A stretch of DNA of 64,000 bases. Source: Paraburkholderia ginsengiterrae. Lineage in GTDB: Bacteria; Pseudomonadota; Gammaproteobacteria; Burkholderiales; Burkholderiaceae. How positions within the stretch are numbered: position 1 is the stretch's first letter; every line of letters begins with the position of its first letter. The DNA lies in contig NZ_LXKA01000065.1 of the NCBI RefSeq assembly GCF_001645125.1, positions 1-64,000 of the forward strand, in the 5' to 3' direction. Below are positions 40,494 through 42,922 of the stretch, in pieces. The position numbers and the translations under genes are program-made. Below the pieces are notes generated by a model. It searched no databases. It saw nothing but the letters and a program-made list of their open reading frames with translations, and was not told the DNA's origin.

Positions 40494-42089
40494 TTAGTGT
40501 GCGCCTATGCCTTCGAGCACTTCGTCATGTTCGCCACGCTCGTCCAGGTATTCGGAGCGGTAGCCGCTATTCACACCCCAGTAGTAGAACACCAGCGAAA
40601 ACGCGATGACCACCAGCATGTCCCAGCCGTAGGGAATGAGGTTATGACCGCCGAATTGCTTGCTGCCGATCAGCGACAGAATTGCCATGATCGGCAGATA
40701 GGCCACCAGCCACCATGCGGCCTTCAGATCGCGCCCCCAGCCGGCAAAACCCGACTTCGCCTGGAAGTAGAAGTACACCGGCAGCGCCACGACCATCAGC
40801 AGAATGATTTCGCCGGTCAGCGGCCACTTTGCCCAGTACAGGATCAGCGACGCGCAGACGAACGCGAACGGCGCAATGATCTTCATGCCCGGAATATGCA
40901 GCGGACGCTCGAGATCCGTCGCCGCGCGGCGCAGAGCCATCAGGCTGATCGGGCCGGTCAGGTACGAGATCACGGTCGCCACCGAGATCACCGCTGCCAG
41001 CGAGCTCCAGCCGCGGAAAAAGAACAGGAAGATGAACGACACCAGCAGGTTGAACCACATCGCCTGACGCGGCACGCCGTAGAACGGGTGCACGTTGCCG
41101 AACATCTTCGGCATCGTGTTGTTGCGCTCCATTGCGTAGATCATGCGGCTGGTGGTCGCCATGTAGGTCGTGCCGGTGCCGCTCGGGCTCACGAAGGCGT
41201 CGATGTACAGCAGGATCGCCAGCCAGTTCAGGTTCAGCGCGATCGCGAGTTCCGCGAACGGCGAAGCGAAGTTGAAGTGGCTCCAGCCCTTCATCACGTC
41301 GCTCGGATTCACCGCGCCAATATAGGCGACCTGCAGCAGCACGTAGATCACCAGCGCCAGCAGGATCGAGCCGATCACCGCGAACGGCACGCTCTTGGCC
41401 GGGTTGCGCGCTTCACCGGCAAGGTTGATCGGGCTCTGGAAACCGTTGAAGGCGAACACAATGCCGCTCGTCGACACCGCGGTCAGCACCGCCGACCAGC
41501 CGTACGGCGCGAAATTGCTGACTTGGCCGAAGTTTTCCTTGTGGAAGCCCGTCAGCATCAAACCAAGGATCGTCGCGCCCGGAATCAGGAACTTGAAGAT
41601 CGTGATCGCCGAGTTGGCCCGCGCGAACAGCTTCACACCCCAATAGTTGAGCATGAAGTAAATGATCACGAGCGCCGCGGACAGCAATAACCCGTTAGTG
41701 GTTAGCGAGCCATCCACGAACAGCGCATGCGCCCAAGGATAGGGCCACGTGCTCATGTACTGAATGGAGGCTTCCGCCTCGATGGGAATCACCGAGACAA
41801 TGGCGATCCAGTTGGCCCAGGCGCTGATAAAGCCGACCAGCGCGCCGTGCGAATAGCGCGCGTAGCGCACCATGCCGCCGGACTCCGGGAACATCGCGCC
41901 GAGTTCCGCGTAGGTCAATGCGATCGCGAGAATCACCACCGCGCCGATAATCCAAGCGCAAATGGCGGCCGGACCCGCAATTTTTGCAGCCTTCCACGCG
42001 CCGAACAGCCAGCCCGATCCGATGATCGAACCCAGACCGGTCAACATCAGCGCGAACGGCCCGATGTTCCGTTGTATAGAACTTTTCAC
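40494..42089 (-). CDS. APC-superfamily amino acid permease
   Basis: A 531-aa protein with about 12-14 hydrophobic segments. It begins with the APC signature LTGLGSIIGSGWLFGAWKAAK and includes FNGFQSPINLAGEARNPAKSVPFAVIG, typical of amino acid/polyamine transporters. I place the start at the GTG at 42089, because AGGAG lies just upstream on the minus strand; the ATG at 42146 would run through the hairpin array. The substrate is not evident. Its 5' leader consists of the tandem hairpins at 42101-42298, which may regulate it. Confidence 0.85.
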   Translation of the reverse strand: MKSSIQRNIGPFALMLTGLGSIIGSGWLFGAWKAAKIAGPAAICAWIIGAVVILAIALTYAELGAMFPESGGMVRYARYSHGALVGFISAWANWIAIVSVIPIEAEASIQYMSTWPYPWAHALFVDGSLTTNGLLLSAALVIIYFMLNYWGVKLFARANSAITIFKFLIPGATILGLMLTGFHKENFGQVSNFAPYGWSAVLTAVSTSGIVFAFNGFQSPINLAGEARNPAKSVPFAVIGSILLALVIYVLLQVAYIGAVNPSDVMKGWSHFNFASPFAELAIALNLNWLAILLYIDAFVSPSGTGTTYMATTSRMIYAMERNNTMPKMFGNVHPFYGVPRQAMWFNLLVSFIFLFFFRGWSSLAAVISVATVISYLTGPISLMALRRAATDLERPLHIPGMKIIAPFAFVCASLILYWAKWPLTGEIILLMVVALPVYFYFQAKSGFAGWGRDLKAAWWLVAYLPIMAILSLIGSKQFGGHNLIPYGWDMLVVIAFSLVFYYWGVNSGYRSEYLDERGEHDEVLEGIGAH

Positions 42090-42100
42090 GTCTTCTCCTG

Positions 42101-42298
42101 TGTCGGCCAGAGTTGGCGCTTTAGCGCTTACTCTGGCCCCATACATAGTATGTCGGTCGGAGTTAGCGCTTTAACGCTTACTCCGACCCCATACATCGTG
42201 TGTCGGCCAGAGTTAGCGCTGTAACACCCTCTAGCCCCTTACACCGTGTGTCGGCCGGAGTTAGTGCTTTAACACCGTCTCCAGCCCCATGCAAGTTT
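42101..42298 (-). repeat. Four tandem ~50-bp hairpin units in the permease 5' leader
   Basis: Units start at 42101, 42151, 42201 and 42249 (50, 50, 48 and about 50 bp), each opening TGTCGG on the plus strand. In unit 2, GGTCGGAGTTAGCG pairs with CGCTTACTCCGACC over CTTTAA with one mismatch. In unit 1, GGCCAGAG pairs with CTCTGGCC. The T/A and G/C differences between units 1 and 2 are compensatory on both arms. Units 3 and 4 are slightly decayed (one C-A mismatch each). Linkers are themselves partly palindromic (CATACTATGTATG on the minus strand). The array ends against the permease Shine-Dalgarno, so it is probably transcribed as structured RNA. Confidence 0.85.
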
Positions 42299-42386
42299 GT
42301 AGCAATACCATGTCGGCACCACGTGACACGCTTGTGGCGTTGGAGACGGGTGACGCGCATCTATGCGCGACGGGTCGTACCAATCA

Positions 42387-42426
42387 GGTGCAACCGACGC
42401 GCGGCGCGTAGTTTAACGGTTGCACC
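42387..42426. repeat. Nested 10-bp inverted repeat
   Basis: GGTGCAACCG (42387-42396) and CGGTTGCACC (42417-42426) are perfect arms. Inside them ACGCGC-G-GCGCGT (42397-42409) is a second palindrome. A further GCGCAT-CT-ATGCGC lies at 42355-42368. They sit between the hairpin array and the csp promoter; no T-run follows. The remaining bases of 42300-42540 show no gene. Confidence 0.6.
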
Positions 42427-42542
42427 CGTTCGCTGCAGCGAAACTAAGGGTTCTCCCTAGCAAAAAATTCAGATGAACAGCAAGGTTTGTAAGCAACTTT
42501 TGCGCCCAGCGGCTGAAAATTCGTAAAGTTGGGGGTTGAGTG

Positions 42543-42571
42543 TTGACCTTCTCTCAAAATCGCCGTATAAC
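42543..42571 (+). promoter_or_regulatory. Cold-shock gene promoter (sigma70)
   Basis: TTGACC (42543-42548) and TATAAC (42566-42571) are separated by exactly 17 bp. Transcription would begin near 42578, giving a 5' untranslated leader of about 140 bases. Confidence 0.8.
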
Positions 42572-42577
42572 GTTCGG

Positions 42578-42718
42578 GCAGGATTTCAAGCGGCGAGTGA
42601 ATTGGTCTTTCGTAGTTCGCCCATCAACGGTACTCCGGTTGGTCCCATTACCCCCTTCCTTGATTTTCATGCACCCTCTGGGCTTCGGCCTTATTTACCA
42701 TCTTTAGGAACAAGTAAT
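42578..42718 (+). promoter_or_regulatory. Long 5' untranslated leader of the cold-shock mRNA
   Basis: About 140 bases between the promoter and the csp start, with no convincing peptide. AGGAAC (around 42707) is the ribosome site. Cold-shock genes in other bacteria have long leaders that refold with temperature; a similar thermosensor here is inference. Confidence 0.5.
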
Positions 42719-42922
42719 ATGGAAACCGGTACCGTCAAGTGGTTCAATGACGCAAAGGGCTTTGGCTTCATCACGCCGGACGGCGGCGGCGAAGATCTGT
42801 TCGCGCATTTCTCGGAAATCCGCACGGAAGGCTTCAAGACGCTGCAAGAAAACCAAAAGGTTACGTTTGAAGTGAAGACGGGCCCGAAGGGCAAGCAAGC
42901 TGCTAACATCAAGCCGGTGTAA
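42719..42922 (+). CDS. Cold-shock protein (CspA family)
   Basis: A 67-aa single cold-shock domain: [34 protein letters not shown] carries both RNA-binding motifs (KGFGFI and DLFAHFS). It binds single-stranded RNA/DNA and melts structured mRNA. It has its own promoter and a strong terminator, so it is monocistronic. Whether cold-induced or constitutive cannot be told. Confidence 0.95.

Follow-up and report, generated by a model that had tools for sequence, protein, structure and literature searches.

A dispersed palindromic repeat usually joined to ribosome-binding sites in Paraburkholderia ginsengiterrae and its relatives

The hairpin array upstream of an amino-acid permease gene in Paraburkholderia ginsengiterrae is one site of a palindromic repeat family that is dispersed in the genome. 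There is good support for a mobile repeat that is joined, in most cases, to a ribosome-binding site. We put at roughly 0.58 the probability of the fuller reading, in which the array belongs to a dispersed and non-autonomous palindromic repeat that lies at ribosome-binding sites and acts in the mRNA on translation or decay.

In the window, i.e., the whole analysed stretch of 64,000 nucleotides (contig NZ_LXKA01000065.1, positions 1 to 64,000), the array occupies positions 42101-42294 of the minus strand. It consists of four head-to-tail units with spacings of 50, 50 and 48, and four placements of the covariance model described below agree with the first-pass annotation of four tandem units of about 50 bp. 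The unit adjoining the Shine-Dalgarno (SD) sequence (42101..42146, GTATGGGGCCAGAG..CTCTGGCCGAC) matched the model with 71.4 bits, the second (42151..42196) with 67.5 bits and the fourth, the 5'-most in mRNA sense (42249..42294), with 57.2 bits. The third (42201..42244) is degenerate and reached 33 bits vs. 57-71 for the other three. A decayed mini-palindrome, recognised from the sequence and from relatives, stands at the 5' side (42291..42303, minus strand, GCTACAAACTTGC; GCAANNNNTTGC-like in relatives). The unit nearest to the permease gene ends with GGCCGAC (to 42102), followed by A, C and the Shine-Dalgarno AGGAG (42095..42099, minus strand), which is present in orthologous leaders with the element (filled) and without it (empty) alike. 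Thus the last unit does run into the permease SD, as had been observed: AGGAG begins 2 nt and the GTG start codon (42089-42087) 12 bases past its end. The permease gene itself (AA_permease_2) covers 40494..42089 of the minus strand. The minus-strand RNA of positions 42080-42300 folds with -112.9 kcal/mol (z = -10.66), and none of 200 dinucleotide shuffles was as good. A sigma-70 consensus scan of 42000-42800 gave no promoter match. A transcription start 3' of the array would allow the permease a leader of at most about 11 nt, and we infer that the window array is transcribed.

The paired changes between units 1 and 2 (GGCCAGAG/CTCTGGCC vs. GGTCGGAG/CTCCGACC) are as first described. They are real but insufficient alone as proof of selection on RNA, since correction of a palindrome in the DNA could produce such changes as well. 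We also agree that the array is not CRISPR-like.

A BLAST search of the array against its own genome gave 42 matches, and 39 full units from 26 own-genome loci were aligned to build a covariance model of 46 positions. The consensus, TTGCATGGGACCGGAGTAAGCGCTAAAGCGCNAACTCCGGTCGACA, has 13 pairs, and 96.0% of the pair cells in the 39-unit alignment are paired. A unit is about 46-56 nt long and is laid out in mRNA sense as ATGGG-hairpin-GTCGAC; in full it comprises (GCAANNNNTTGC or GCTTTGC)ATGGG, a 9 bp stem, an A-rich internal loop, a 4 bp stem with its loop and GTCGAC. The consensus hence replaces the single stem of 14-15 bp proposed earlier by stems of nine and four pairs. As to the palindromic linkers noted at first, a GCAA..TTGC-like mini-hairpin was found 5' of the first unit in 16/33 own arrays and 25/53 arrays of relatives, counts that rest on a loose regular expression. 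Changes on both sides were seen at 9/13 pairs among the 39 dispersed units; the observed covariation was reached by 0/500 shuffles in four of five measures and by 16/500 in the fifth (further pair types). Among the unpaired positions, TGG just 5' of the stem is conserved in at least 90% of the 39 units. A mini-ORF, ATG/GTG-N9-TAA/TAG, is open in 42/47 own units and 90/100 related units, to which we give little weight because the stem and the CCA tail (TGG on the other strand) already dictate most of its letters.

The model found 85 matches in the own genome, of which 53 are full-length by our count; the others are mostly opposite-strand echoes of the palindrome. The genus, family and class searches were run with stricter filters, at which weak matches are lost. 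All 118 genus genomes (own included) were matched at E 0.01, some marginally. Eight of them have four matches or fewer (G013, G015, G024, G034, G082, G094, G105 and G115), with a single weak match each in G034 and G115, while high per-genome counts in this search are lower bounds, at least about 50. The family search was positive in 85/200 genomes and 8/25 genera, 63 of the 85 positives lying outside the genus, and the class search in 2/369, namely the own genome and one marginal match (E 9.5e-4). The best reading of this distribution is that the repeat belongs to Burkholderia in the broad sense. It also occurs in 29 plasmid or chromid records (Paraburkholderia 12, Caballeronia 10, Burkholderia 7); the phage search gave zero matches. 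A known structured RNA of Rfam was ruled out, since the only match at gathering score in the window was a tRNA; in 41900-42720 the scan gave only a sub-threshold mir-2290 (29.8 vs. 50 bits). No earlier description of the repeat was found in open-licence literature. A text search with 11-base pieces of the unit returned a single Burkholderia-titled match, a chance phage SD, and the parts of the B. cenocepacia transcriptome literature consulted mention no such repeat.

The position of the copies was assessed with an SD test, which is passed when an SD core starts no more than about 5 nt past the end of the element and the start codon after it begins a reading frame of 50 codons or more. In the own genome, 25/33 sites pass, always for a gene on the same strand, compared with 94/6600 random positions in these loci (1.4%). 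The best-per-genome sites of the genus search pass in 22/28 cases (random positions in those loci, 77/5600), and those of the family search, some of which also belong to the genus, in 15/24 (random, 54/4800). Three of the four plasmid sites examined pass by sequence, in four records that carry no annotation there, and the fourth (L434, GTCGACA-GGAGACAAACATG) fails the reading-frame part. A gene with an SD-like motif reads away from the other end of the element at 3/31 loci. Among the eight own-genome misses, L008 has an SD a few nt further, L019 lies beside a contig end, and L013, L015, L020, L026, L199 and L200 are real exceptions away from an SD. This count excludes L202 (no aligner match) and L048 (core only); from the 34 loci submitted, L203 fell below the score cut and adjoins an SD. 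At L048 (about 1500-1535) the core hairpin stands alone, just downstream of the point where a 23S rRNA gene presumably ends.

Five of the nine family-search misses lie inside larger palindromic repeats, with which they are amplified. Likewise, the high-scoring copies sampled in G150 and G218 mostly lie inside other repeats and pass the SD test in 0/30 and 1/9 cases, one of them (L247 in G150, GTCGACA-CAGGAGAGGTACATG) failing its reading-frame part. Most copies at L230-L259 (G150) and L261-L269 (G218) are within two other palindromic repeats and have been co-amplified with these hosts. Empty copies of the host repeats (GGGGGGCAGCGAACG in G150, G130 and G166; CTTTCTTTGCAGCGGCAAAG in G218) are palindromes themselves, so insertion there was mid-palindrome.

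Empty orthologous sites place the insertion point directly 5' of the SD. Among the permease leaders (80 named orthologs and the window), the empty form reads TTCTGAT-ACAGGAGAAGACGTG, and the filled form carries the element between these two parts. Twelve of the 81 leaders are filled, one change on the gene tree suffices, and we read them as a single gain in the group with P. xenovorans, P. fungorum and P. bryophila. The filled branch has a support of 65, and a set of 13 rows that includes one empty row has 96. One leader, L162, was counted as empty on this tree with a score of 14 vs. a cut of 15; by eye a pair of diverged units is present, which probably stems from a second insertion event at this position. 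For 15 other own-genome genes, inspected by eye in up to seven genomes each, 12 had at least one empty ortholog. The SD and spacer are plainly identical in empty and filled alleles at atpG, atpC, L004, L005, L010, L023 and L025; at atpG, for example, the empty allele reads CTTCGATC-AAGGAGCAAGCA-ATG and the filled one CTTCGATC-[GCTTTGCATGGG..GGCCGAC]-AAGGAGCAAGCA-ATG. The 3' edge of the insertions is constant and the 5' edge ragged. A simple target-site duplication was rejected, as none is uniform; by eye, the insertions into hairpins fit GC/AGC and those at SD sites fit none.

The two atp sites were compared in 90 of the 116 genomes found, 58 of which are filled at atpG and 59 at atpC (L392, with only a remnant at atpC, counted as empty). 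On the atpG-atpD tree the presence of the element changes 19 times at atpG and 20 times at atpC, so the repeat is dispensable; the changes fit equally well with gain on several occasions, with precise loss and with alleles passing from one species to another. In 31/31 measurable empty atpG alleles (e.g., L342) the SD is directly preceded by a stable native hairpin (-24 to -35 kcal/mol); three were folded, and in two of them part of the SD is drawn into the pairing. At L418, L425 and L427 the element stands in place of a native hairpin. The idea that insertion relaxes the constraint on this native hairpin was not supported, as it is not weaker in filled alleles (p = 0.84; 45/58 filled and 31/32 empty alleles measurable).

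Loss of pairing at homologous loci had been named at the outset as evidence against the proposal; at the atp sites pairing is kept. The atpG copies (45 distinct sequences) are 91.4% paired, with double changes at 6/13 pairs and 1/500 shuffles as high, although pair 4/37 is unpaired in 32/45 sequences. The atpC copies (53 sequences) are 93.3% paired, with double changes at 9/13 pairs and 0/500 shuffles. Alignment A3 was made without L347, and identical rows entered A2 and A3 once. Counted on the tree from paired states, G-U in mRNA sense arose 52 times and A-C 29 times (binomial p = 0.014). Third codon positions of atpG, a crude control, have more C-to-T than G-to-A changes, and this bias accounts for the C-to-T half of the excess (26 vs. 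17); it leaves the A-to-G excess (25 vs. 12) unexplained, as far as so crude a control can tell. The 39 dispersed units have roughly as many G-U as A-C cells (11 vs. 9, own count). The G-U excess on the tree gives moderate support to selection on RNA. The atpG and atpC copies sit between genes of a single operon, the atp operon, and are therefore expected to be transcribed.

Folding does not support an insulator role in which the hairpin would keep the SD exposed. The predicted accessibility of the SD at atpG is 0.248 in filled vs. 0.622 in empty alleles, the opposite direction; at atpC it is 0.476 vs. 0.399 (p = 0.07), and at 24 own sites 0.435 vs. 0.397 with shuffled upstream letters (p = 0.23). 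At atpG and atpC alike, the filled alleles have the higher predicted opening energy of the SD.

No common functional theme links the proteins encoded downstream, of which 28 were scanned. Among them are F1 ATPase gamma and epsilon, LpxD, FlgC, thiolases, CoA-transferase-like proteins, BoxC, HpaD and the permease, as well as an oxidative damage protection protein, ExbD/TolR, ABC transporter parts, DUF444, DUF3311 and a GNAT protein, several of these names being best matches below the curated cut-off. A regulator specific to the permease is ruled out by the genome-wide scatter and these mixed genes. The array had been described as fused to the ribosome site of an APC permease: the fusion to the ribosome site is general, because the repeat is usually joined to a same-strand ribosome-binding site genome-wide, while the link to a permease is incidental. 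A riboswitch or attenuator specific to amino-acid permeases would be restricted to related genes, whereas atpG, atpC, lpxD, flgC, thiolase genes, genes of the CoA transferase family, boxC and others lie downstream here. The first-pass annotation, which weighed a regulatory RNA of several hairpins, a REP-like element that had expanded in a leader and an array for protein binding, had set scatter, as in a REP/MITE family, against linkage to transporters, as in a cis-regulator; the downstream genes are not transporters as a class, and the repeat is scattered and polymorphic in its presence, yet usually joined to ribosome sites.

The closest described repeats are the CGTC-tagged REPs (Di Nocera et al. 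2013, PMC3733652), and the comparison was made against the text of that paper. As described there, CGTC REPs have an unpaired CGTC (or TGTC, CCTC) at one end and a CCA tail at the other, and an 8-9 bp stem that begins with A-T pairs and encloses a loop of 4-5 nt. They form mostly head-to-head dimers, head-to-tail ones being negligible, and are located near the 3' ends of genes at a variable distance from the downstream gene; Burkholderia is absent from the main text (PMC3733652). The opposite strand of our unit likewise reads NGTC-stem-loop-stem-CCA, with TGTC a listed variant of the head, and both repeats are dispersed and palindromic without a known dedicated transposase (PMC3733652). The head is present, as G43 and C45 are invariant, A44 is conserved in at least 90% of the 39 units and the next base is mostly A, giving mostly TGTC and overall NGTC on the other strand. 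The tail is present too, T6, G7 and G8 directly beside the stem being conserved in at least 90% of the units. On the other hand, the stem of our unit begins with G-C and A-U (A-T in DNA) and has 9 bp, an internal loop and 4 bp, its arrays are direct tandems (head-to-tail), and its 3' edge adjoins an SD at 25/33 own sites. As the stem, dimer and location differ, we regard the repeat as near the CGTC REPs and not as a member. The closest-described REPs lie mainly near gene ends, while copies of the repeat here usually adjoin a ribosome-binding site and share the strand of the gene.

The BRE of Bordetella is also a beta-proteobacterial intergenic repeat in strain-polymorphic tandem arrays of variable number; it is about 90 bp long, and in the parts of PMC3110155 consulted it is listed for Alcaligenaceae, Comamonadaceae and Rhodocyclaceae, not Burkholderiaceae. 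Those parts describe no copies fused to an SD (PMC3110155). REPIN/RAYT elements, going by excerpts of their literature, are short palindromes dispersed in intergenic DNA as well, and differ in forming inverted doublets where our copies are direct tandems. Mobilisation by a RAYT was rejected, as no Y1_Tnp match (PF01797, E 1e-10) was found in the own genome (G000); 17/118 genus genomes are positive, and a past or foreign Y1 enzyme may have served as the mobiliser. Correia/NEMIS and ERIC elements resemble the repeat as small mobile palindromes that are transcribed and able to change the fate of mRNA. To our knowledge they are longer than the unit, have terminal inverted repeats and are not anchored at the SD, and SD terms were not found in the available part of their literature.

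The repeat inserts with its fixed 3' edge directly 5' of an SD and, more rarely, in the middle of other hairpins, presumably through some mobilising machinery, after which arrays would grow by head-to-tail duplication or self-insertion. In the mRNA the units would form at least one stable hairpin in contact with the ribosome-binding site, and would most likely tune translation initiation, mRNA decay or both for the downstream cistron. Judged from sequence, an effect on expression of that gene is likely. A less probable account, to be taken seriously all the same, is a purely selfish palindromic repeat of the REP/MITE type without a regulatory role, whose bias towards SD sites would come from insertion chemistry or from purging elsewhere and whose pairing would be kept by palindrome correction at the DNA level. 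It fits the scatter and turnover between genomes, the nested insertion in own and other hairpins, the unrelated functions of the downstream genes and the NGTC head and CCA tail shared with CGTC REPs. The copy at L315, whose 3' side has turned into GGTCCCATGC to give a longer perfect palindrome, also suggests such correction. The constant placement of the 3' edge at an SD, in the orientation of the gene, and the excess of G-U over A-C changes on the tree argue against this account, as does the covariation within orthologous copies, though DNA correction could yield the latter too.

Somewhat more doubtful is a mobile cis-acting RNA module that targets SD sequences, with the ribosome-binding site as its landing site. 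Landing at AGGAG, e.g., by template switching or priming of a reverse transcript, would make the 3' edge precise and leave the 5' edge ragged, and the genome would be repeatedly re-equipped with hairpins at translation starts. We think it improbable that the hairpin is a true regulon element, read everywhere by one RNA-binding protein or sRNA that co-controls the genes: the conserved unpaired TGG (at least 90% of 39 units) would suit such a reader, but no function is common to the genes downstream, closely related species differ in which sites are occupied, and 8/118 genus genomes have four matches or fewer. A double-stranded protein-binding array, an operator upstream of the permease, is very improbable; palindromic units about 50 bp apart are what it would predict, but the stem letters vary while pairing is kept, and the position is tied to the SD, also between operon genes. 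The position of the family at ribosome-binding sites raises the question of how so short a repeat finds translation starts. Since filled as well as empty alleles of individual genes occur naturally across dozens of species, they are a ready experiment on the effect of an SD-touching hairpin on expression.

Further upstream of the permease, an inverted repeat, GGTGCAACCG..CGGTTGCACC around the motif TTAAACTACGCGCC, lies at 42388-42427 of the window on the minus strand. It was seen upstream of many permease orthologs, including Burkholderia leaders without the hairpin repeat, and is a better candidate than the array for a conserved control region of the permease. From position 42720 onward, a small ORF on the plus strand is divergent from the permease gene across the shared intergenic region, and by eye its product is cold-shock-like.
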